A stretch of 64,000 bases of DNA from assembly GCA_020466095.1 (NCBI GenBank), contig CM035808.1, positions 24,972,796 to 25,036,795 on the forward strand, given 5' to 3'. Source of the DNA: Chlorops oryzae (taxonomy: Eukaryota > Arthropoda > Insecta > Diptera > Chloropidae). Below, piece by piece: positions 15,361-53,577 of this stretch. Position 1 is the stretch's first letter. Each line of letters begins with the position of its first letter. A model generated the notes under the pieces. That model was not told the DNA's origin, searched no databases, and was given only the letters and a program-made list of their open reading frames with translations. The position numbers and the translations under genes are program-made.

Positions 15361-16647
15361 TTAGGTGTAGTAAAAAGAAATCCATTATTTTTGCATTAAA
15401 TTGAGGGCTTTATTTAAGATAGTTAGAATGACCCGATTTAGGTCAAATATGCGCCGTTTTGTTCGATAACTTGTTGCCATTTTGAAGGTAATTTCTTTAT
15501 GCCTCTCTCATAGAAGCCCTCGTTCCTATTAGCAAAAAATTGAGACAGTCGAATTTCAGAAGCCTCTCTTGAAGCGAATGTTTCACCAGCAAAATTGTTC
15601 GCCATGGACAGGAACAGATGGTAATCACTTGGTGCCAGGTCCGGACTATAAGGTGGATGCAGAAGAACCTCCCAACCAAACTCCCGGAGCTTCTGGCGAG
15701 TCACTATCGATGTGTGTGGCCTGGCGTTGTCCTGATGGAACACAATTCCTCTCCTATTGGCCAAAGCTGGCCGCTTATGGGCGATTGCTTCCTTCAGACG
15801 GTCCAATTGTTGACAGTAGAGTTCCGAGTTAAGAGTTTTGCCGTATGGGAGCAGCTCATAGTAGATAATTCCCTGCCAATCCCACCAAACACACAGCAAA
15901 ACCTTCCTGGCCGTCAATCCTGGCTTGGCCACCGTTTCCGCCGGTTCACCGTGTTTCGACCTCGACCGTTTTCGCTTGACGTTGTCGTAAGTGACCCACT
16001 TTTCATCACCAGTCACCAACCGCTTCAGAAATGGTCGATTTTGTTGCGGTTCAGCAGCGATTCGCAGATGGAAATTCGGTCTGTGAGGTTTTTTTGCGTT
16101 AACTCGTGTGGCACCCATACATCGAGCTTCTTTGTGTATCCAGCCTTATTAAAATGGTTCCAAACGGTTTTTTGTGCAATCTTTAGCTCTTTTGCAATCG
16201 AAACAGTGCTAACATGACGGTCGGACTCGATAATTTCCATGATTTTATCGACATTTTCGACAATTGGCCTTCCAGTGCGTGGTGCATCCTTGACATGGAA
16301 GTTACCGGAACGGAATCGACGAAACCAAAATTGCGCATGATTGGCTGTTACAGTATCAGGTCCATAAACGCTATTCACATTTTCAGCCGCCTGGCTTGCG
16401 TTTTCTCCCTTATCGAAGAAAAACTGTAAAATGTAGCGAATTTTCTCTTTGATGATGTCCATCTTTGACAAGCTCCCAAACAAAACTGAATCAATCAATC
16501 AAAAAAGTGTCAAAAAAGCTTTTTTAGTAGGAACTGTCATCTTTCTAATGCCCCCTAGCGGAACACGATCGGACATATACAACGCGAGATGCAGATAAAT
16601 AACTCCATCTATTGGAAAAATAATGGATTTCTTTTTACTACACCTAA
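15361..16647 (-). mobile_element. mariner element, copy 1 (defective)
   Basis: 1287-bp Tc1/mariner-superfamily element with matching inverted ends starting TTAGGTGTAGTAAAAAG (about 32 bp perfect), flanked by TA at 15359-15360 and 16648-16649. Copy A of the surrounding duplication reads straight through as ACATATATGG, giving the exact empty site. It is almost identical to 43231-44518 but one base shorter, and that base breaks its transposase. Non-autonomous; it could be moved only by transposase made elsewhere. Confidence 0.97.
15438..16462 (-). pseudogene. mariner transposase, frameshifted
   Basis: Encodes the same 341-residue mariner transposase as copy 2, but a single G is missing near 16034 (ATGG here, ATGGG in copy 2). 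The amino-terminal frame (HTH DNA-binding part and the WVPHELT linker) therefore stops just after the NRNKID stretch. The catalytic part, with TGDEKW, QDNARPHTS and YSPDLAPSDYHLF, lies in the next frame. A few missense changes also separate it from copy 2. The start is taken at the ATG whose complement is 16460-16462; a longer open frame upstream begins only with TTG. It cannot make a full transposase without frameshifting. Confidence 0.93.
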
Positions 16648-17781: not shown

Positions 17782-19967
17782 CATGTAGGAGTGTAGGTCT
17801 AACTATTCTTCTTCCTAATCCCTGGAATATGTTAGAGCTACGCTGCTTGAACATAGGCATATAGCATGAGGAAAAGAGAAGCATGCTATGGCAGCGAAAT
17901 ATTTAGCTCTGCTCTGGTAAAATGCATTGCCACTTTTATTTTTAATTTTGGGAGATTTTCGAGTACATTACATATAAAATATCTACCAAACTCATAAAAT
18001 GATATGAAAAGCTTGAAAAACATAAAACTAATCAAGGAAACTCAATATCTAGGAGAAAAAGATATTGTTTTTTTAGTCTTACCCTGTCCACATAACTTTT
18101 TGATCACACTGTTTCAGCAAAAATACTGAATTCTATGTACAATCAAATTCGTAGCCGTAGTCAAAAATGTATGTCAATTTATCACAAATTGAAAACATTT
18201 GTGCACATTAAGCAAAAACATATCGTAGTACATTTATTAAAGCTTCAATTATAACTTTTAAAGCTATATAAAAAACCCTAGCCGACGCCGCACAGTGCTT
18301 CGTTCCCATACATTCGATGGACAAAAATAGAAAGAAGTGTCGTAGGGCAATAAAATTTGGCACAAGTCCCTAATATGGCTTAATTAAGAAAATTTCGAAG
18401 TTTCATCAAAATTGACCCCTCCCACCACCCACCGCCCATACCACCCAAAGTTATTTTCGGCTATAAAAATGGATATTTTGCCAAAAATTTCTTAAAAATT
18501 GGGAGAAGAGTATATACATATGCGATCTTATCAAAAAATAATATTTCCTCCATTAATTTCGTAAGATTTTTATTACTGTTTTCACGTTCGCGTCTTAAGT
18601 CTTTTCGCAGACAGTTCTGTTAAAAAAACGAGAGATAAAGCAAGGACTTAAGACTCAATAATCAGCCACATTTTTTTAAAATTGCAACGAAAAACAACGA
18701 AGGTAAAGACTTATAAATGCATGCACATTTCATAAATATTGAAAAGCATACTTTTTGGCTGCATTTAATAATGTTTATTTACAAAGAAAACTTTAGTATA
18801 AATCATGAAAATATACATTTTTAAAATCTAACTTTTTCTTTATTTGTTGGTTCGATAAAAGTCTGATTTTTTCATAACTTATTAGAGGAATATATAAGGT
18901 ACTAAAAATAGGAATAAAAAAATACCCGTTTTTCCGTATTTTTTTTTTTTACTCCATTAAAGTTTCGATATTTTTTACTATGAAAAAAAAATTTGTGCCT
19001 TTTTCAAGCAGAAAAGCAAAATGATATTAAGCTCCTTTGCCTAAAAGCATATTTTTAATGTACTTCTCATATATTTGAAAAGTTAAAACAACAAACCTAA
19101 AGTCTATTATTAAAAAAACGTATTTGTGGCAATTTCTTGCGAAACAGCTTGAAACAAGTGTTTCATAAATCAAGAAAAACGCTTATGGGAAAAATGATTT
19201 TTTTCTCAATTGTTGGTTCGATAGAAGTCTGATTTTTTCATATCTTATTAGAAGAATATATAAGGTATTAAAAATAGGAATAAAAAAATACCCGTTTTTT
19301 CCGTATTTTTTTTTTTTTACTCCATTAAAGTTTTGTAATTTTTTGAATAACCAACCAAAAATTTGTGTTTTTCAAAGCAAAAAACCAAAACGACATTAAG
19401 CCCCTTAAAATTGCCTTAAAATTTATTTTTTATTTATTACTTATATATTGAAGAAGTCAAAAAATTAAGTTTGAAGTAATTTCACGAAAAAATAAATTTT
19501 TGAGATTATTTTTAGTGAATCGACTTGAGCGATTTTTTTGTTAAAGCAGTTTTGCTTAAAATCGTCTTACTTCAGCGCCCTCTAGTGGTGATCTAAAGAA
19601 TCAAACCATAAATATTTTTCTATAATTATATTAGTTGTTTTATTATCTTTCCGAAAATATATATTTCATCAATATATTAAAACAATTTTTTTTTTTTGAT
19701 TTTTGTCTATGGGTCGAAGCACTGTGCGCCGTGTTTCTTTGCAAGTGGCATCTTAGTGCCACTTTGTGTCCACCCGTATTGTTGTTGGTAGCTTTCTGAT
19801 AAATTTCTCGAATTTTTTGAATTTCCTATTAGTGCCTAAGGTTTTTGTTGGTAGCTTTTTGGTGAATCTCCCCAATTTGTTGAATTTCCTATACCTGCCT
19901 ATTGGTGTATTTCCCCATTGCGGCAGAGCCATTTCGACGTCGACAGTTAGACCTACACTCCTACATG
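17782..19967. mobile_element. hAT-like non-autonomous element (host of nested Transib)
   Basis: Ends 17782-17804 and 19945-19967 are perfect 23-bp inverted repeats starting CATGTAGGAGTGTAGGTC. The flanking octamers are TTCGCATT (17774-17781) and TTCGCAAT (19968-19975), a 7/8 match to an 8-bp duplication, and they fit the hAT preference nTnnnnAn. With the nested Transib removed about 750 bp remain, with no transposase. A roughly 63-bp tandem duplication lies at 19782-19907 and a small hairpin (AGTGGCA/TGCCACT) at 19744-19762. The family call rests on duplication length only. Confidence 0.7.
18291..19726. mobile_element. Transib-like non-autonomous transposon with RSS-like ends
   Basis: Both ends begin with CACAGTG pointing inward (18291-18297 and complement of 19720-19726), followed by CTTCG. 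Both flanks carry CGCCG (18286-18290 and 19727-19731), a perfect 5-bp duplication matching the GC-rich CGNCG preference known for Transib. The left end has a nonamer-like ACAAAAATA at 18321-18329 after a 23-bp spacer. The right end has ACAAAAATC (complement of 19698-19706) after a 13-bp spacer, or GACAAAAAT after 12. No transposase frame is visible. Inside, a 124-bp direct repeat occurs at 18844-18967 and 19210-19333. Transib is the family from which RAG1 is thought to descend. Confidence 0.85.
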
Positions 19968-30007: not shown

Positions 30008-31552
30008 TCACCCATTATCCGTTTGATCGAAGGAAACCGCATCATTGTTGAGCGAGTAAAATTGAAAATTCAAACTATTTGGCATTATCAATGTTTTTCC
30101 AATCTTCTCAAATTCGCCATCAATCTCGATAGATTCAAAAATGAGACTAGAATCGATATTTGTTTCATCTTTGAATACCTCACCACAGCTTTCTGCATTG
30201 TCGCTCGTGCAAGCGTACAAGGCACAAACTTTTATATCACTCCATTCAATTTTCTCGTAAGTACGCCTTCCGGCAAAAATACCAATGCGATATTTGTAAT
30301 AAGTCGAGCTGCTTACAATTCTCTTTGATGTCATCAGGTGAAAATTACAACAAAACTTATTGTAGCAAAGCTTGCGCAAAAAATTTGATTCACCGAGATC
30401 GAGCTGCTCGGAGTTATATACGCCAATTTGAGGGTCCTTCATTAGCTTAATGCCAGTCTGAGAACTTCGGCCACTGTTCTTCGATTTTGACATGTAATTT
30501 TGAGCGACGCTCTTCCAATCACCGGACTCGATCTTAGGAATCTGAGCAACAAATAACTTCCGAATTCCCACGTGACCGATCATAGCCGAAACTAAATGGC
30601 CCCTTTTACCCGCGTATATTCCAGTGCCAGTGACACCTTCTTCCGGATAACTCGCACCAGCTGCCAAAAGATTGACATTATTTCCATACGCCCAGGACTG
30701 TTGTAGTTGCGTTGCTGAAAAATTTTTCAAAATTTGACTTTTTATTTTTAAATATTAGAAAACTTCGGCTTTACCGGTCAGGAATGGCAGCTCCGAATAG
30801 AAGAAGCTCGTGAATACGAAATTCCTTATTCCAAAGCGATCTACTAATTGCTGTGCTGGCGTGTAGAATAAAATGTCAAAGCATATGAAGTGTCCGAATC
30901 GTACGCCAAAATCTGTTTCAAAAATCCCATACTCCGGCTCAAGCGTTGTGTTTTTATTTTCAACGTAGATGTGAACTTTACGGTAACGCGAAATGACGCT
31001 CCCCTCTCTATCGAATACAACATTCGTATTGTAAATATTGAGATCGTTGGTCGCACACGGTCTGGGATCGTCCAAAACAGTGCTGCAGTTCTCTTTCTCC
31101 GTCAAATTGATAACCAAATATTTTCGAACGTCCCTCGCTGTACAGGAAAGTTTCACAAGAAACTCGGCGAAATGTTCAGTATTTTTGGAATTCCCATGCT
31201 GTAAGCATGGAATGATCTTATCCTTCGGTGCGGGTACATAGGAAAAATGTAACTCATTGTTGAGTGTTCCTTCGGGAAAAACAATTATGTCTGTTTGATT
31301 CGCTTCCCTTGAACGTATAATTTCATCATAGGCACGCAGGTGATCGATCATTGCTTCATTTGATGTCATTCCAAATAAATTAGGGCGGAATTCAACTACA
31401 CCAGCCGTATAGTACTCTTTCGCAGTTGCCTTTAAATAAAAAATCAAGCAAACTTCAATCGAAACGTTAAAATTATCAACAATAATATGACATACCATGG
31501 TTATAATTATAAAAACGGACAAAAATATTCTGAGAAACTCCTCCGAAATCAT
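30008..31552 (-). CDS. Vanin/biotinidase-like secreted amidohydrolase
   Basis: Three exons on the minus strand, 31552-31496, 31429-30775 and 30714-30008, with 66- and 60-bp introns, give 472 aa. The ATG is taken at 31552; a slightly longer frame upstream begins only with TTG, and an initiator-like TCAGTT lies just upstream. Residues 1-20 (hydrophobic IFLSVFIIITM) form a likely signal peptide. A nitrilase fold follows with the complete triad: Glu72 in VFPEGTLN, Lys170 in RYRKVHIY, Cys202 in GHFICFDILF. Family hallmarks such as QQSWAYGNNVNLLAAG start the last exon. Vanins hydrolyse pantetheine to pantothenate and cysteamine, and biotinidase releases biotin; which substrate applies here is unknown. 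Asn-X-Thr/Ser sites (for example NQT, NLT, NTT) fit secretion. No GPI-type tail is evident. Confidence 0.93.
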
Positions 31553-32795
31553 CTTCAATGATATCAAGTAAACTGAAGCCTTATCCAGCTGATTCGTTTT
31601 GACATTTTTCTTTGACAGACTTTCGTAACAACATTAAGCTGTCAAGTAATCTTATCAGAAATCGCTTGATCAACATAAAGCCCACTGTAAACGATGAAAT
31701 TTTATTATTTTCTTGAGTCATTGAAAGTGTTTATTGTTTTCAACCTATTCAATGTCATTTTATGGATTGGTTTCACAAAATCTGTTCTCTTAATGAAGTA
31801 ATAGGATATTCGACATGAGGAACTTTTGCCCCAATGCAATGCATGAAGACATGATTTCGCGACTTTATCAGCCCGATTCTGAATATTCCCGGGGAACGAA
31901 TTCCCGGGGATTCGACCTTTCTTGACCGTAAACTTTTTCTTTTTTAAATATTTTGGTGAAGCAATTTAATGGAGAATGGGTATTTGACCGATACCCATAA
32001 TTTTCCTTACCCTATCTATTTAAAAAAAGAGAATTTTAGTTTCGAAAAAAAAGTAAATTCCCCGAGAATATTCAGAATAGGGCTGTATATGTCGTACTCA
32101 ATACTTTCGAGCAACGTTTTATTGCAATCGCTCAAGAGTTTATTGTGTGATTTTTATTATTTATTAATTCGAAAAGAAATTTAGAAAAATTGGGTTAATT
32201 GCAGCATTAATCACACGAAAGTTGATACAAGAAGGAAAATATATCGATAGTTTCTTTATATTCAATAAATTGAACAAATTTCTGAAGTGTTTTACGATTG
32301 GGTCAAAAAATATCCATAGAGATTTTTGTTCGATTGATTGTTTTAATGCTGCATATCAAGCAGGAGAAAAGAAGCTGGTTTCAATGATTTTGAGAAATGA
32401 TACAAGTTCTAACTGTTCTCGTTTTCTTCAGAATAGTTTATATGCCCAATAAAAAATGATGTGAATGAAAATTTGAATAATTTGGGCTTGGCCATGAAAG
32501 AAACATCAAGATAATGGTTTCAAAGAATCGCTGTGGAAAGGAGTCATTCAAAGATTACTCGGATGCAAAATATTGCCAATACCAAGGGAAAACTTAACGA
32601 CTGATGAAAAGATAAGTCTACAATCCCAAATTTAATTTGTGGTTGAAAATGTGGTTTAACATAGATAAAACTTTTGCCTTGGAATTCCAAGTTTCATATT
32701 CCAATAGAAGACAATCACAATATGTATTGATTTATGAGTTATAAGGCAATAAAACAAAATCCAGTTAACAAAGCTCAGAATCGTGTAGAAAGCGT
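31553..32795. other. Intergenic DNA upstream of the vanin-like gene
   Basis: Contains the vanin-like promoter side (no TATA seen) and a CCCGGG MITE at 31870-32084. Short frames at 31969 and 32222 overlap or follow the MITE and have no recognisable features. Confidence 0.5.
31870..32084. mobile_element. CCCGGG-type MITE, third copy
   Basis: Inverted ends: AGCCCGATTCTGAATATTCC on the left and the near-complement ending AATATTCAGAATAGGGCT on the right, each with a CCCCGGGG or CCCCGAG block inside. It is a relative of the elements at 12191-12423 and 16954-17184. 215 bp, non-coding. Confidence 0.72.
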
Positions 32796-33225: not shown

Positions 33226-34240
33226 ATGGAATGGCAAAAGTCAATATTCGTTTTAGGTAAGCGACCAATAATTTCAATCTCTTTTACATGTGGTGAAATG
33301 TTGACGTAAAACTTTTTCAACAGCACTACTGTTTGCATGCTGTTTTGGGAGGCCCGATATAAACGACGACCGGTCTTTCTTTGATTCAAAATGTCGTTGT
33401 CTTCCTGGGCCACCAGGGCCCCCGGGATTACCAGGCAGACCTGGTTACCGTGGATATAGAGGATATCCTGGCATACCAGGTGGATGGAATGGTGGTGGTG
33501 GGGGCGGCGGCGGTGGTGGAGGAGGGGGAGGCGGTGGAGGAGGTGGTGGCGGCGGCGGCGGCGGCAGTGGTATTGGATGGAATGGTGGTGGTGGCGGCGG
33601 CGGCGGTGGTGGCGGCGGCAGTAGTGTTGGTGTCGGTGGTATTGGTGTCGGTGGCATTGGTTCCGGTGGCATTGGTTCCGGTGGTATTAGTGTCGGTGGT
33701 ACTGGTTCCGGTGGTATTGGTTTCGGTGGTGTCGGTGGCATTGGTTCCGGTGGTATAAGTGTCGGAGGTGGTAGTAGTGGTGGAAGCGGAGTTGGATTTG
33801 GCGGATTTGGAGGATTTATTGGTCCACCCTTTCCTCCTCCATTTTCGTATCAATTTCTACCATTTCCATTTCCAGGCAATACCGGAACGGTAACCATTGG
33901 AAATACTGGAAACAATGGAATACCAAACACTGGTAACAGCAACTCTAATTTCAATACTGATTTCAATAGTGATATTGACATTAACATCAATCGAGTGCGA
34001 GCATTGGCGAAACAGAAACAAAGCGCACATAAGAAAGGAAATTCAGCTTTGACGAGTGCAGAATGGAGTCCCGAAATGGACTATCAAAGCGCAGAGCACA
34101 CCTTAAATGAAATTGAAAATGATGATCCGACAGAACTTGATGGAACGGCAAATATGGATATCGGAAACGACTACCAAGATGATGAGGACACACCGAATTC
34201 TAACTCCGAGTTGCGAGGTTTTTTAGTTTCACTGAAATAG
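33226..34240 (+). CDS. Secreted collagen-like, glycine-rich protein (paralogue 1)
   Basis: Two exons, 33226-33256 and 33324-34240, with a 67-bp phase-1 intron, encode 315 aa. The start at 33226 is chosen because it is the only nearby ATG giving an in-frame 31-nt exon and a good signal peptide (residues 1-19, MEWQKSIFVLALLFACCFG). Residues 34-65 hold CRCLPGPPGPPG and further Gly-X-Y triplets, a short collagen-like helix. Residues about 66-165 are almost pure Gly with Ser, Val and Ile (GGIGSGGIGS-type repeats). Then come a Pro/Phe patch (PPFPPPFSYQFLPFPF), an Asn/Gly/Thr region and an acidic tail ending SELRGFLVSLK. There is no internal ATG or stop in the main exon. Exon 1 length, intron phase, SIFVLA core and carboxyl end match the next gene, so this is a tandem pair. 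Function unknown; a structural extracellular role (silk, cuticle, eggshell or gland secretion) is inferred. Confidence 0.85.
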
Positions 34241-35165: not shown

Positions 35166-36318
35166 ATGATATGTAACATCTCAATCTTCGTTTTGGGTGA
35201 GAACGGAGAACTTAATTCGAAAAAACCAAGAATTATTTTTTATTTATATAAAAATTATTCTTTCAGCTGTTGCCATTGTGGGCTGTGGAGGCCGATCTGT
35301 TGGGAATAGCCGATCTTTTAGCTTCGATCCTTCACAACATTGTCATTGCCCACCAGGACCTCCAGGGCCGCCAGGACCTCCAGGTCCCCATGGACCACCA
35401 GGACCACCAGGGCCACCAGGAGCACGCGGACCGCCCGGACCACCGGGTCCAGCTGTCTTTATACCAGGTCCTCCACCGCCACCGCCGCCACCACCTCCAC
35501 CACCACCACCACCACCACGTCCAATGGCAATGCCCATGCCTATGCCAATGCCAATGATGATGCCAGGACCGCCCCGACCAGGCATGCCAACACGACCTCA
35601 GCGTCTTTATTCGTCATATGATATACATCCCTACACGAAATTTCACAAATTTCCGCCCTTCTCGTTTCGAAATTTAAATCCTTTCTACCCATTTTATGAC
35701 AGTGATGACGTAAACAATGACATCGATGAAAATGGTGCTAGGATGTCGAAACCTTCGGAGAAGAATCCTAAGCAGGAGCAGCAGCAAAACGATGGTAAGC
35801 CTGAACAGGAACATCTACAAAACGAGCAACAACAGCAACAAAACGAGCAACAACAGCAACAATACCAAGAGCAACAGCAACAGCTGCTTGAACAGCAACA
35901 CGAGCAGTATCTACAACAGTATCAGCAGTATCAGCAATATTATCAACAGCAGCAAGAACAGTATCAGCAACAATTGCAGCAACTGCAGCAGCAAGAACAG
36001 TATCAGCAACAATTGCAGCAACTGCAACAGCCACAACAGCAGCAGCAGCCACAAAAGGAGCAAGAGACGCAGCAACAAGAAACAGGTCCGCAAAAACAGC
36101 AACACAAGAAAAAACCCGCAAAAGCAGATGAACAAGAGAGCGATGAATCGAGTGTAGAATATGAAACGGGAAATCATGTTGACGATGAGTTTGAAGCTAC
36201 ACAAAACATGGAAGATGCCAGTGATTATTCCAATGAAGATGACGATGAGACAAATGACGAGTTCGAAAGAGATCAAGCAAGAAGCAAATTACAAGCCTAC
36301 CTCGTTTCATACAAATAG
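35166..36318 (+). CDS. Secreted collagen-like, Pro/Gln-rich protein (paralogue 2)
   Basis: Two exons, 35166-35196 and 35267-36318, with a 70-bp phase-1 intron, give 360 aa. The signal peptide is MICNISIFVLAVAIVGCGG. Residues 36-74 begin CHCPPGPPGPPG and continue as Gly-X-Y triplets rich in Pro-Pro, a collagen-like helix of about 11 triplets. Next come a poly-Pro run (about residues 78-94), Met-Pro repeats (MPMPMPMP), a Tyr/Phe/Pro-rich globular-looking patch (YSSYDIHPYTKFHKF), a long Gln-rich tract (about 190-285, QQQ with Tyr, Leu and Glu), and an acidic tail ending SKLQAYLVSYK. That ending parallels FLVSLK in the first paralogue. Gln codons mix CAA and CAG, so the tract looks selected and not like a simple expansion. 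An AATAAA follows at 36371. Function unknown; a secreted structural protein is inferred. Confidence 0.88.
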
Positions 36319-43230: not shown

Positions 43231-44518
43231 TTAGGTGTAGTAAAAAGAAATCCATTATTTTTGCATTAAATTGAGGGCTTTATTTAAGATAGTTAGAATG
43301 ACCCGATTTAGGTCAAATATGCGCCGTTTTGTTCGATAACTTGTTGCCATTTTAAAGGTAATTTCATTATGCCTCCCTCATAGAAGCCCTGGTTCCTATT
43401 AGCAAAAAATTGAGACAGTCGAATTTCAGAAGCCTCTCTTGAAGCGAATGTTTCACCAGCAAAATTGTTCGCCATGGACAGGAACAGATGGTAATCACTT
43501 GGTGCCAGGTCCGGACTATAAGGTGGATGCAGAAGAACCTCCCAACCAAACTCCCGGAGCTTCTGGCGAGTCACTATCGATGTGTGTGGCCTGGCGTTGT
43601 CCTGATTGAACACAATTCCTCTCCTATTGGCCAAAGCTGGCCGCTTATGGGCGATTACTTCCTTCAGACGGTCCAATTGTTGACAGTAGAGTTCCGAGTT
43701 AAGAGTTTTGCCGTATGGGAGCAGCTCATAGTAGATAATTCCCTGCCAATCCCACCAAACACACAGCAAAACCTTCCTGGCCGTCAATCCTGGCTTGGCC
43801 ACCGTTTCCGCCGGTTCACCGTGTTTCGACCACGACCGTTTTCGCTTGACGTTGTCGTAAGTGACCCACTTTTCATCACCAGTCACCAACCGCTTCAGAA
43901 ATGGGTCGATTTTGTTGCGGTTCAGCAGCGATTCGCAGATGGAAATTCGGTCTGTGAGGTTTTTTTGCGTTAACTCGTGTGGCACCCATACATCGAGCTT
44001 CTTTGTGTATCCAGCCTTATTCAAATGGTTCCAAACGGTTTTTTGTGCAATCTTTAGCTCTTTTGCAATCGAAACAGTGCTAACATGACGGTCGGACTCG
44101 ATAATTTCCATGATTTTATCGACATTTTCGACAATTGGCCTTCCAGTGCGTGGTGCATCCTTGACATCGCAGTTACCGGAACGGAATCGACGAAACCAAA
44201 ATTGCGCATGATTGGCTGTTACAGTATCAGGTCCATAAACGCTATTCACATTTTCAGCCGCCTGGCTTGCGTTTTCTCCCTTATCGAAGAAAAACTGTAA
44301 AATGTAGCGAATTTTCTCTTTGCTGATGTCCATCTTTGACAACCTCTCAAACAAAACTGAATCAATCAATCAAAAAAGTGTCAAAAAAGCTTTTTTAGTA
44401 GGAACTGTCATCTTTCTAATGCCTCCTAGCGGAACACGATCGGACTTATACAACGCGAGATGCAGATAAATAACGCCATCTATTGGAAAAATAATGGATT
44501 TCTTTTTACTACACCTAA
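43231..44518 (-). mobile_element. mariner element, copy 2 (structurally intact)
   Basis: 1288-bp element with perfect ~32-bp inverted ends (TTAGGTGTAGTAAAAAG inward) and TA on both flanks (43229-43230 and 44519-44520). It carries one uninterrupted transposase gene. Near identity to copy 1 indicates recent activity of the family. Because ends and coding sequence are both intact it is a candidate autonomous copy. Confidence 0.97.
43308..44333 (-). CDS. mariner transposase (intact)
   Basis: 341 aa from the ATG at 44333; a TTG-started extension of 12 codons is ignored because mariner proteins normally start here and are about 345 aa. The amino half holds paired helix-turn-helix DNA-binding regions (SQAAENVNSVYG, VSTVSIAKELKIAQKTVWNH) and the linker motif WVPHELT (116-122). 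The catalytic triad is Asp153 (TGDEKW), Asp245 (QDNARPH) and Asp280 (YSPDLAPSDYHLF), with 34 residues between the last two: the mariner D,D34D signature. It cuts and pastes its own element at TA sites in the nucleus. No stops or frameshifts. The subfamily is not assigned with confidence. Whether it is expressed is unknown. Confidence 0.95.
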   Translation of the reverse strand: MDISKEKIRYILQFFFDKGENASQAAENVNSVYGPDTVTANHAQFWFRRFRSGNCDVKDAPRTGRPIVENVDKIMEIIESDRHVSTVSIAKELKIAQKTVWNHLNKAGYTKKLDVWVPHELTQKNLTDRISICESLLNRNKIDPFLKRLVTGDEKWVTYDNVKRKRSWSKHGEPAETVAKPGLTARKVLLCVWWDWQGIIYYELLPYGKTLNSELYCQQLDRLKEVIAHKRPALANRRGIVFNQDNARPHTSIVTRQKLREFGWEVLLHPPYSPDLAPSDYHLFLSMANNFAGETFASREASEIRLSQFFANRNQGFYEGGIMKLPLKWQQVIEQNGAYLT

Positions 44519-50084: not shown

Positions 50085-52041
50085 CGATTCTCCAAAAAGT
50101 AACTTCCGAAGACGACTCAATTTTTTTTTCGCACTTTATTGAGCCATTCATCAGGACACACTCTCTGTCATTCCAAAAAAAAAATTGTTCTATGAATCCC
50201 ACAATGACACTAAGCCAGATCAAAACTTCTTCAGAACTGCTTTAAGCTGTCCAAAATGGACAAAGTAAAACCCACCAACGTAAGAGCTTTCTTAAGAAGA
50301 TCCAAAGGATAACAAAAAATCACTTCATCCGTGATTTATGACTTCGTTCAGCAGCTACGATTTTAGCTTTTCAAACGTCCAAGGAAAGTCTCTGAATACA
50401 AAAACAAAAAAAAAGGTGAAAGCCAGAGAATGCTTAAGTTAAGAGGAGGACGAAGAAGAAAAATAAGAAGGCGATAACGACCCATAAAGTACAATCGTAC
50501 TCGCCTTAATTTAAGTATTATTTGACCACAGTCTACTTAGTTATTATGCTGTCTCCTCGCTTTTTAAAATAACAAATCGAATCTGTGAGAGCTTAAAGCC
50601 TTAATCATTCGCGACGCTTATCGCTTTACTTGACTTAACTTAATCAATCGGCAGATTTGATCAATTCTATTTCATTTTTATGGGAACATTTATAGAAAAC
50701 TTAACTCGATTTAAGTATTTCGGGTACAAATCCTTAAGATCCGTTATGTTCAGCCAGAATTAAGCTTTAAACGTACTCACTTTATCGGAAAGTGTTTTTA
50801 TATTTCAGATATTGCATTTAAGCGCCCTTAGGCGATCTGAAGTTTTTATTTACATAGTCTATATATTCAGAGTACAAGCATAACGGCTTTTCCTGGCTGC
50901 TGGCAATGATTACATACAAAAGCTGTAGCGGAACCGCAAAGGCAATTTCGACTTTCACCCACGACACAGAGATTCATACATATATACGAGTATTTATGCA
51001 AGTAGGTGTCTATGTATGTATGCACAACCGGTGCAGAGATTTCGATTATCTGGCATACGTTCGGTTGAGTCAATTGACCAGTAGAGGAGACAACTTTCAT
51101 TGCAATTTGGTAGGGATTAAAAATATCCTTTTGCTGGATATGCTATGGCACTTGAGTTTTTTTTTTTTTTTTTTACTTACTGTTCCTGTTGGTTTTAACA
51201 TTTTGTTTGCTTGTGCTCACTGGGAGTATCGATTCACAGTCAAAAGAGTTTTTCCAATTTGGTCAACAAACGAACTGAAGTCAATGACTTTAGGTTTAAA
51301 CAACCACTTTAAAGGTTCCGAAAAGGATTTTTCTTTTAGTTAACATTTTGAAAAAAAATTTTTTTTTATAAGTAATTTTTGTTTTTCTAGGATGACTTCT
51401 AAGTAGCTTAACTATTCGTTAGAAAATGCACAATTTTGGTTGTAGAATTAAGTCGAATAATCACACTGAACGCCAAACTATTCTGCAGATCTCAAAACCC
51501 AAAACATTTTCAACTTCAAAAGACCATTACCACCAGAAGTCGATTTCAAAAGTTCCCACCATTTTCATTCTCCCTCTGTCCTTGCTTCTCTTTCCCTTTC
51601 GGATGCAACGAAACTGCAGTTAAGTAGGTTTTGCAGCAGGGATTTTTGTTGCGAAACTTTTGACCGAAACTTTTGATATTTGCATAAATTATGAACAGGC
51701 TTTTGTACTTCAATTTCTTATGACGAAATAATAACATCATTCCATGAGGTATTACGGTGGATTTTGTTGTCGTAATTATCGTTCAAAAGTTATCAAGTAG
51801 AAAATTCGCTGTTGAAAAAGTTTTCTTTTTTGCCGAACAACGCAGTAGGCCGGAAAAGAAAGCGATTGAATGTTTCTGGCTTTTTGCCCAAATATCCTTT
51901 TAATTTGGAAAAAATTCAAAAAAAATTCATTTTGAGAATATTTATTTATTCAAGAAGCTGTTGAAGGGATTTTATTTTTGTTTTGTCTATTTTTCTCAAT
52001 CGTTTGTTGGAAGAATAAAGAAGCAAATTTGATAGGCAATC
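50085..52041. other. Region upstream of the catalase-like gene
   Basis: No supported gene; frames at 50906-51343 and 51426-51627 are unremarkable. No TATA box is seen near the catalase-like start, in keeping with a TATA-less promoter somewhere in 51750-52040. Confidence 0.45.
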
Positions 52042-53577
52042 ATGGAATCATCTGAGGCATGCTGCCCAGCCGGCAATCAATTAATGGAATTTAAAAACAA
52101 TATGAAAACAACAGCCGGAACAATTACGACTGCAAGCGGTAATCCTGTGGGCGTGGCAGACGCATTGATGACTGTTGGACCACGTGGTCCCGGCCTATTG
52201 CAAGACATACATTTTATGGATCATGTAGGTCATTTCGATCTGGAACGTATACCCGAACGTGTGGTCAGTGCAAAGGGTGCTGGTGCGTTCGGCTACTTTG
52301 AGGTATCGCACAATATTACCGACGTTTGTGCTGCTAAATTATTCGATAAGGTCAAGAAGCGGACGCCCGTTGGTGTGAGATTTTCAACGTTTGTCGGTGA
52401 GAGGGGCTCGGCCGATTCTGTTCGTGATATACGTGGATTCGCTGTGAAATTCTACACTGAAGATGGTATTTGGGATTTGGTTGCTAGTAATTTACCAGTG
52501 TTTTCAGTTCGTGATCCGCAAATGTTCTCGAGTCTTGTGCATGCGATGAAACGCAATCCGGAAACACATTTGAGGGATCCGGAAATGTTTTGGGACTTCA
52601 TGACGTTGCGTCGTGAGACAATCCATCATCTGTTGTTGTTGTACAGTGATCGTGGCATACCAGCTAGTTACCGCCATATGCACGGTTATGGTGTTCATGC
52701 CTATAAGCTTGTCAATAATCGTGGTGAACCGATTTTTGCAAAATTCCACTTGAAATCGAATCAAGGCGTCAAGCATTTAGAGTCGCAAGAGGCCGTCAAG
52801 CAGGTTATGTGTGATCCAGATTTTGCAACTGCCGATCTCTTCAATGCTATCAAGACTGGAAACTATCCATCTTGGACGATGTACATTCAGGTTATGACGT
52901 ATGAGCAAGCAAAGAAATCACCATTCAATCCTTTCGATGCAACGAAAGTTTGGCCGCAAAGCGATTACCCGCTTATTAGAGTTGGTACTCTGCTTTTGGA
53001 TCGAAATCCCGTTAATTATTTCGCTGAGATCGAACAGATTGCATTTAGCCCGGCAAATATGATACCGGGTATTGAGCCGACAGCCGATCGGTTACTACAA
53101 GGTCGTCTCTTCGCCTACGGCGATGCACAACGATATCGTTTGGGTACAAATTACCAGCAAATTCCTGTTAATTGTCCGTATCGTGTTTCGATCAAGAATT
53201 ACCAACGCGATGGTTCGATGACTGTTCACTGTAATAAGGGCGGTGCACCAAATTACTACCCAAATTCGTATGGTGGACCCGAGGTTGATTCGCGCTCGAA
53301 ATGCTTGACAACATGTTGCCCGATTTCCGGTGATGTTTTTCGCTTCCCCGACGGTGGCACTGAGAATAATTTCGATCAGCCGGCTCACTTTTGGGAAAAG
53401 ATTCTGAATGAATTCGAAAAGAAACGATTGGTCGAGAATTTGGCCGATCACTTATCGCTTGCAACTCAGGAAATTCAGGAGCGTGCGGTTAAAAATTTTA
53501 ATATGGTAAACACAGATCTGGGAACGATGCTCACTGAAGCACTCAATGTGAGGAAATTGCAAAAAGCACGGCAATAG
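52042..53577 (+). CDS. Catalase-like protein, probable pseudoenzyme
   Basis: Single open frame of 511 aa covering the whole catalase fold: arm (NPVGVADALMTVGPRGP), FDLERIPERVVSAKGAGAFGYF at about 65-86, β-barrel, NYFAEIEQIAF, heme-ligand segment GRLFAYGDAQRYRLG and GGAPNYYPNSYG. In active clade-III catalases the distal side uses His75 and Asn148 (human numbering). Here the equivalents are Ser76 (RVV-S-AKG) and Ser149 (DLV-AS-N), while the proximal Tyr359 and Arg355 are kept. Without the His, peroxide cleavage should fail, so a heme-binding or regulatory role is inferred. The carboxyl end (KLQKARQ) has no SKL-type peroxisome signal. It has no introns, unlike the usual fly catalase gene, suggesting an old retrocopy; Drosophila has an intronless catalase paralogue (CG9314, recalled as testis-expressed) that may be the orthologue. 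AATAAA at 53707. The intact 1.5-kb frame argues for purifying selection. Confidence 0.95.
   Translation: MESSEACCPAGNQLMEFKNNMKTTAGTITTASGNPVGVADALMTVGPRGPGLLQDIHFMDHVGHFDLERIPERVVSAKGAGAFGYFEVSHNITDVCAAKLFDKVKKRTPVGVRFSTFVGERGSADSVRDIRGFAVKFYTEDGIWDLVASNLPVFSVRDPQMFSSLVHAMKRNPETHLRDPEMFWDFMTLRRETIHHLLLLYSDRGIPASYRHMHGYGVHAYKLVNNRGEPIFAKFHLKSNQGVKHLESQEAVKQVMCDPDFATADLFNAIKTGNYPSWTMYIQVMTYEQAKKSPFNPFDATKVWPQSDYPLIRVGTLLLDRNPVNYFAEIEQIAFSPANMIPGIEPTADRLLQGRLFAYGDAQRYRLGTNYQQIPVNCPYRVSIKNYQRDGSMTVHCNKGGAPNYYPNSYGGPEVDSRSKCLTTCCPISGDVFRFPDGGTENNFDQPAHFWEKILNEFEKKRLVENLADHLSLATQEIQERAVKNFNMVNTDLGTMLTEALNVRKLQKARQ

Follow-up and report, generated by a model that had tools for sequence, protein, structure and literature searches.

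Transib elements with unequal, 12/23-type ends alongside symmetric relatives in the genome of Chlorops oryzae

According to excerpts of PMC8289069, most Transib families have symmetric ends, and those of HzTransib from Helicoverpa zea are symmetric with little or no similarity in the nonamer; ProtoRAG of amphioxus, in the same account, works best with unequal 27/31 ends, above symmetric pairs. Transibs with symmetric spacers of 20-22 bp and Transibs with 12/23 asymmetry are both listed in the available part of PMC8355894, and the asymmetric elements named there, in the legend to Fig. 2 after its reference 8, are Transib5 of Drosophila melanogaster and Transib2, N1, N2 and N3 of Anopheles gambiae. 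The same excerpt ties the recognition of asymmetry to RAG2 and counts a few asymmetric Transibs as the sole further case known, and a passage of PMC7204232 suggests a rather low sensitivity to asymmetry for the RAG-like complexes of invertebrates. It is an open question whether the 12/23 rule arrived with vertebrate RAG2 or had been a trait of the ancestral transposase before.

Asymmetric Transib ends are already known, and the element analyzed here adds a further case. It lies in a stretch of 64,000 bp of the Chlorops oryzae genome (assembly GCA_020466095.1, contig CM035808.1, positions 24,972,796 to 25,036,795), the whole of which is referred to below as the window. Symmetric and asymmetric Transibs are found side by side in this one genome, and long/short pairing can be traced in it through whole families, including one, named T2 below, that has its own transposase gene. 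The window element is useful for asking whether a 12/23 preference exists without RAG2. In the literature looked at, consisting of parts of the papers cited, we met no genome-wide tally of Transib spacer classes and end pairing, and such a tally may exist in print.

The window element and its family

Read inward, the ends of the window element (Table 1) are CACAGTG-23-ACAAAAATA on the left and CACAGTG-13-ACAAAAATC on the right. The features on which a first-pass annotation had been built, namely CACAGTG at both ends, CGCCG on both flanks and a nonamer-like block exactly 23 bp behind the left heptamer, are all present on direct reading. That annotation had put the right spacer at 13 or 12 bp; the former value holds, with ACAAAAATC in the usual nonamer frame, and the latter is reached only if GACAAAAAT is counted, though 12 bp is the spacing seen in the relatives T2 and T3. 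A scan of 18291-19726 for open reading frames of at least 130 aa yielded none.

Table 1. Features of the Transib-like element, in window positions
Feature	Positions	Strand	Remarks
Whole element	18291-19726	+	1436 bp; window family; non-coding, very probably a non-autonomous Transib
Target-site duplication CGCCG, left	18286-18290	.	5 bp, same letters as 19727-19731
Target-site duplication CGCCG, right	19727-19731	.	direct reading
Left heptamer CACAGTG	18291-18297	+	direct reading
Left spacer, 23 bp	18298-18320	+	direct reading and copy survey
Left nonamer-like block ACAAAAATA	18321-18329	+	direct reading
Right heptamer CACAGTG	19720-19726	-	direct reading
Right spacer, 13 bp	19707-19719	-	direct reading and copy survey
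Right nonamer-like block ACAAAAATC	19698-19706	-	direct reading
Stretch homologous to T2 and T3 23-ends	18306-18458	+	about 70% identity; blastn and alignment
Internal direct repeat, copy 1	18824-18950	+	127 bp; sequence comparison
Internal direct repeat, copy 2	19190-19316	+	87% identical to copy 1; sequence comparison

Within the window, CGNCGCACAGTG with at most one mismatch occurs twice, both times as an end of the element; 100 shuffles of the window contain it 0.19 times on average, and four of them at least twice. The two-part patterns CACAGTGN{22,24}ACAAAAA and CACAGTGN{11,13}ACAAAAA each occur once in the window, and in none and two of the 100 shuffles, respectively. Genome-wide end counts are a stronger control than these shuffles. 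With up to two mismatches allowed, the genome contains 224 left ends (by a pattern of heptamer and spacer without nonamer) and 210 right ends (by a pattern that includes the nonamer), 434 together, and not a single match to the reversed version of either pattern. When spacers of 14-22 bp were admitted, three exact ends with intermediate values were found genome-wide (18, 14 and 22 bp), against at least 100 exact matches for each regular end. The two-part 23/13 ends of the window element are confirmed as real.

A search of the whole genome for copies (442 Mb, 1044 contigs) gave 45 matches among the best 40 of 1285 candidates, and the ends were compared in 40 copies, the window copy and 39 retrieved ones, which represent 37 separate insertions and three segmental duplicates that repeat the flanks of another copy. 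The left spacer measures 23 bp in all 40, in 39 by the strict pattern and in L017 with the same spacing behind a mutated heptamer (TGCAGTG), the only left heptamer of the 40 that is not intact. The right spacer measures 13 bp in each of the 37 copies that allow its measurement (36 by the strict pattern, together with L039, in which the first spacer letter is changed); of the other three, L017 has a nonamer decayed into a run of A, the sequence of L043 gives way to Ns, and L047 is cut off. The right heptamer CACAGTG is intact in 37 of 37 copies whose right end was found in the first end comparison, which lacked those of L021, L043 and L047. Identical 5-bp flanks are present in 35 of the 37 copies with both ends found. 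Among these 35 target duplications, three segmental duplicates included, 22 read CGNCG, and C stands at position 1 in 35, G at position 2 in 31 and G at position 5 in 32; the duplication is 5 bp long and CGNCG-like, as initially proposed. The right end of L021 was found later, beside an abutting element: two Transib ends lie there head to head with 5 bp between them (CACTGTG-CGCCG-CACAGTG), an arrangement that recurs at about 640-655 of L068 (CACTGTG-CGCAG-CACAGTG), as if the second element had used the target duplication of the first as its target.

Pairing was analyzed with 191 exact ends on C1 and C2 among the matches listed (100 left ends, reaching to C2:99.1 Mb, and 91 right ends, with nine right ends on C3 left out). 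Each of the 64 inverted pairs formed within 10 kb combines one 23-end with one 13-end, never two ends of the same class, although these pairs, and likewise the 13 of T2 reported below, are not independent events, pairs within a family being inherited. No partner among the ends listed is available for 63 of the 191. The shortest paired element measures 380 bp and the longest 9209 bp, and lengths cluster clearly at about 1428 bp. Long/short pairing is an anatomical fact that is constant across copies, and unequal spacers belong to whole families and are not private to the window copy. Of the two outcomes that the first-pass annotation had left to other copies, a private deletion or a feature kept by all, it is the second that they display, and its remark that the spacers differ by about one helical turn stands as anatomy.

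The copies of the window family are considered young because they depart from the family majority sequence by only 0.8-3.4%. In a comparison of 34 copies, from which the segmental duplicates L033, L036 and L046 were left out (all three stay in the other copy counts), substitutions amount to 1.1% in the left end, 3.8% in the right end and 1.4% in the interior. Indels are absent from the left end and equally from 37 of 127 interior segments of 39 bp, and gaps are found in the right end of five of the 34. Conservation is thus no higher in the ends than in the interior, and selection on the ends is not visible at the level of copies. Since the copies are young and their ends not extra conserved, constancy among copies says little about selection.

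Elsewhere, the window carries two mariner-like elements, one with an uninterrupted frame of 353 aa matching Pfam Transposase_1 and HTH_48 (43308-44369, minus strand) and one split into two frames (15438-16498, minus strand). A catalase frame (52036-53577, plus strand; Pfam 1e-175) and two frames matching the carbon-nitrogen hydrolase and vanin C-terminal domains (30008-31633, minus strand; Pfam) were also seen, together with two frames that contain collagen-like GPP stretches as well as tracts of poly-Gly, poly-Pro and poly-Gln (33305-34240 and 35170-36318, plus strand), the first of which had no match in a Pfam scan.

Transib relatives with transposases in the same genome

No transposase was found between ends of the window family itself when 38 transposase places on C1 and C2 were compared with the exact ends listed: one place lies within 8 kb of such an end (C1:102859052, at a distance of about 7.8 kb), and no listed pair encloses any of the 38. 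The one long copy sampled, of 2.7 kb at C1:118341277 (L092), shows window-family sequence and a mariner frame in the 901 bp read inside it, and is an ordinary copy that contains a mariner. By eye, this mariner resembles the two of the window.

The RAG1 model PF12940, the only one used in this profile search, matched five loci in the C. oryzae genome and none in 14 control genomes. Autonomous Transibs are described in an excerpt of PMC4411706 as present in 'one or at most a few copies'; against this, the 654-aa frame of one locus, L053, used as a query, returned 70 matches among the best 68 of 1375 candidates, revealing many Transib lineages with long open frames. Four kinds of transposase-linked or T3-type element could be read to both ends in at least one copy. 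T1 (L053, L054, L055 and L066) has CACAGTG heptamers, spacers of 22 and 22 bp and target duplications CGACG or CGCCG; L053 itself sits, as judged by eye, between two LINE-like frames. This locus was considered as the autonomous partner of the window family and rejected, its ends beginning CACAGTGGTTCAG and its spacers being 22/22. T4 (L074 with L088) has CACTATG heptamers, spacers of 23 and 22 bp and the duplication AGCCG. These other Transib families of the genome are symmetric, 22/22 in T1 and 23/22 in T4.

T2 (L083-L087) is 3049 bp long and reads CACAGTG-12-CAGAAATTC upstream, where the nonamer is poor, and CACAGTG-23-CAAAAAATA downstream. Its five loci are 99.6-99.8% identical; the main frame, of 551 aa, is preceded by a frame of 122 aa that suggests an intron. 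Four of the five matched stretches contain no stop, and that of L083 contains one. Among 38 T2 ends genome-wide, for which spacers of 10-25 bp were allowed, the spacer is 12 bp in 19, 23 bp in 18 and 11 bp in one. All 13 inverted pairs are 12/23, among them pairs that bound short copies (433, 574 and 850 bp), which have end variants of their own, and 12 of the 38 ends have no partner among the ends listed.

T3 is represented by a frame of 557 aa at L089, the downstream side of which carries a T3 23-end and for which no 5' end was found in 4.4 kb, and by one non-autonomous copy of 1407 bp (L091:748 to L068:647) with spacers of 12 and 23 bp. This copy, the only T3 pair, has the flanks CGGCG and CTGCG, equal in four of the five letters of the duplication. 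The 89 T3-type ends (spacers of 11-26 bp allowed) fall into 12 bp (45), 23 bp (40) and 11 bp (4); no inverted pairs are found within this list, from which the 12-end of the 1407-bp copy is absent as a pair member because its letters GTTG differ from the fixed GTGG of the pattern. No partner was found in the 1.9 kb read for the T3-type 12-end of L090, or in the sequence read for that of L065. The latter end lies within a further element (L065:2885-4157) with inverted ends AGGGATCGGATTTTACATA, which seems to interrupt a T1-type transposase frame. The flanks retrieved for L081/L082, L077 and L080 contain no convincing Transib end.

By the definition of 12/23 asymmetry as spacers of 23 +/-1 and 12 +/-1 bp with an A-rich nonamer, the window family (23 and 13 bp) and T2 and T3 (23 and 12 bp) are asymmetric. 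Taken together, 34 ends in transposase-linked and T3-type loci have spacers of 12 bp (7), 15 bp (1), 22 bp (18) and 23 bp (8) with 8-26 bp allowed, in a tally whose nonamer forms were picked after the ends had been seen and which leaves a mutated end of L073 unmatched. The 15-bp spacer belongs to a T1-related 5' end (L075:458), where 22 bp would be regular, and spacer length can hence fall outside the two main classes. Given this spacer and the coexistence of symmetric 22/22 and 23/22 relatives with the same motifs, Transibs in general need no asymmetry.

The left 23-end of the window element matches the 23-ends of T2 and T3 far beyond the signal, in blastn alignments of 94 bp (71% identity) and 155 bp (70%), and other copies align with T3 at 70-71% over 170-177 bp. 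As it aligns with downstream 23-ends, the left end of the window element corresponds to a downstream end, and its right, short-spacer end to an upstream one; between the latter and the T2 upstream end, no clear alignment was found beyond the heptamer. Beside its 22-bp spacer, the upstream end of T1 has GGCCAAAAATGCC, and so has the T3-type 12-end of L090 beside its own spacer, which argues for a shared A-rich block whose distance from the heptamer has changed by about one turn.

The transposases of T1, T2 and T3 match HzTransib (PDB 6pqn) with E values of 8.3e-106, 1.1e-116 and 6e-98, and give weak matches to RAG1 or RAG1L. The relatives with homologous 23-ends, T2 and T3, encode Transib transposases, and the window copy is non-coding. 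The designation of the window element as Transib-like is thereby supported, and the search for an autonomous relative, as advised by the first-pass annotation, has been answered in part: T2 and T3 combine homologous 23-ends with a Transib transposase, and the comparison of the C1 and C2 places with the exact ends listed brought up no partner that bears the ends of the window family. T2 and T3 carry the D, D and E motifs, the surroundings of which align, and a GRP motif; the first Asp of T1, in IWGCDG, was missed by the motif pattern and read from the alignment, and at the third acid the pattern failed to match T4, L077 and T1c. The GRP motif is present in six of ten rows (T1, T2, T3, T4, L080 and L082) and absent from T1b, T1c and L077, perhaps because of short open stretches, and from the HzTransib chain piece, the letters of which begin later. 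The T1 motif was aligned to GGRPRQHL of RAG1, no more than a lead, as the stretch alone scores below zero; GGRPR is part of the nonamer-binding domain. In a tree of the ten rows, T2 groups with T4 (85/85) and both with T1 (97/95), T3 pairs weakly with L082 (64/58), and the tree is too weak to tell a single from a multiple origin of the asymmetry.

Possible function or inheritance of the unequal ends

The window element is very likely a non-autonomous (MITE-like) Transib with two-part ends that would be moved in trans by a Transib transposase, its membership being argued from the CG-rich 5-bp duplications and from its left end, which is homologous to the 3' end of an element with an HzTransib-like transposase. 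Each end consists of the heptamer CACAGTG, which would be cut at its outer edge, and of an A-rich nonamer-like block, N-CAAAAAT. The heptamer would be bound by the catalytic body of the transposase, and the block would be contacted and held by its N-terminal GRP region, the presumed counterpart of the RAG1 nonamer-binding domain. Heptamer and block are separated by 23 bp at one end, the downstream one in T2 and T3, and by 12-13 bp at the opposite end, which is upstream in T2, so that the spacers differ by about one helical turn; the transposase may prefer such a 12/23 pair and bring a long and a short end together, the asymmetry acting like a 12/23 rule, and excision followed by insertion into a CG-rich 5-bp target would leave CGNCG-like duplications. 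That a single-protein Transib transposase, without RAG2, enforces true 12/23 pairing, with spacers in classes of 12-13 and 22-23 bp and paired copies spreading, is a tentative proposition and a rather doubtful one. If true, the 12/23 rule would reside in the transposase with its GRP region, would predate RAG2 or owe nothing to it, and could have arisen from symmetric 22-23-bp ends through the loss of one helical turn upstream.

It is quite conceivable, on the other hand, that the asymmetry is inherited and without function, a founder having lost about one helical turn, the transposase tolerating the loss and copies and daughter families inheriting it. The A-rich block would then be merely a part of a longer terminal repeat, and only the functional part of the proposal is disputed. 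Such an inheritance is congruent with the youth of the copies, the ends of which are no better conserved than the interior, with the presence of symmetric families in the same genome and with the homology that links the 23-ends of T2 and T3 to those of the window family, on account of which these families may go back to a single ancestral event. Spacers of 12-13 and 23 bp, however, are kept with almost nothing between in three families that differ in spacer sequence, and the presence of GGCCAAAAATGCC in both a T3-type 12-end and a T1 22-bp end speaks for the block as a shared element. T2, moreover, groups with the symmetric T1 and T4 and apart from T3, though weakly. The end pairs counted, 64 of 64 and 13 of 13, agree with a 12/23 preference of the enzyme, but they are inherited. 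Sequence alone cannot decide whether long/short pairing is preferred or merely inherited; given five near-identical T2 loci, four of them stop-free in the matched main frame, the question is open to a single-protein experiment.

Membership in another superfamily with 5-bp duplications and CAC ends might be suspected in a non-coding element for which no transposase of its own was found among the C1 and C2 places, and is most improbable in view of the CG richness of the duplications and of the homology between its left end and the 3' end of the T2 element. Finally, a deletion private to one copy, or a chance resemblance to recombination signals in AT-rich DNA, where words like ACAAAAAT are common and two of 100 window shuffles gave a 12-type match, is ruled out by the copy survey, in which 40 copies agree with one another, with the 434 ends counted across the genome and with T2 and T3.

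Comparison with known systems

The window element, read as a non-autonomous Transib, shares with V(D)J signals the heptamer CACAGTG, an A-rich nonamer and 12/23-type spacers, and the transposases of its relatives weakly match RAG1. It differs in that its signals are the ends of a transposon that makes target duplications, in that one of the window-family spacers is 13 bp and in its nonamer, ACAAAAATM, the V(D)J consensus being ACAAAAACC. HzTransib and related structures (PDB 6pqn) are alike in having a transposase homologous to those of T1, T2 and T3, and unlike the window family, T2 and T3 in the symmetry and low nonamer similarity of the ends, as far as described in the excerpts of PMC8289069. 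ProtoRAG, from the same source, also has unequal ends, with spacers of 27 and 31 bp and two proteins. A likeness exists also to Transib5 of D. melanogaster and to Transib2 and N1-N3 of A. gambiae, compared here by description: these elements, too, combine heptamer and nonamer with unequal spacers of 12 and 23 bp (+/-1). In contrast to them, the pairing of long and short ends has here been tallied over whole families, with symmetric families alongside.
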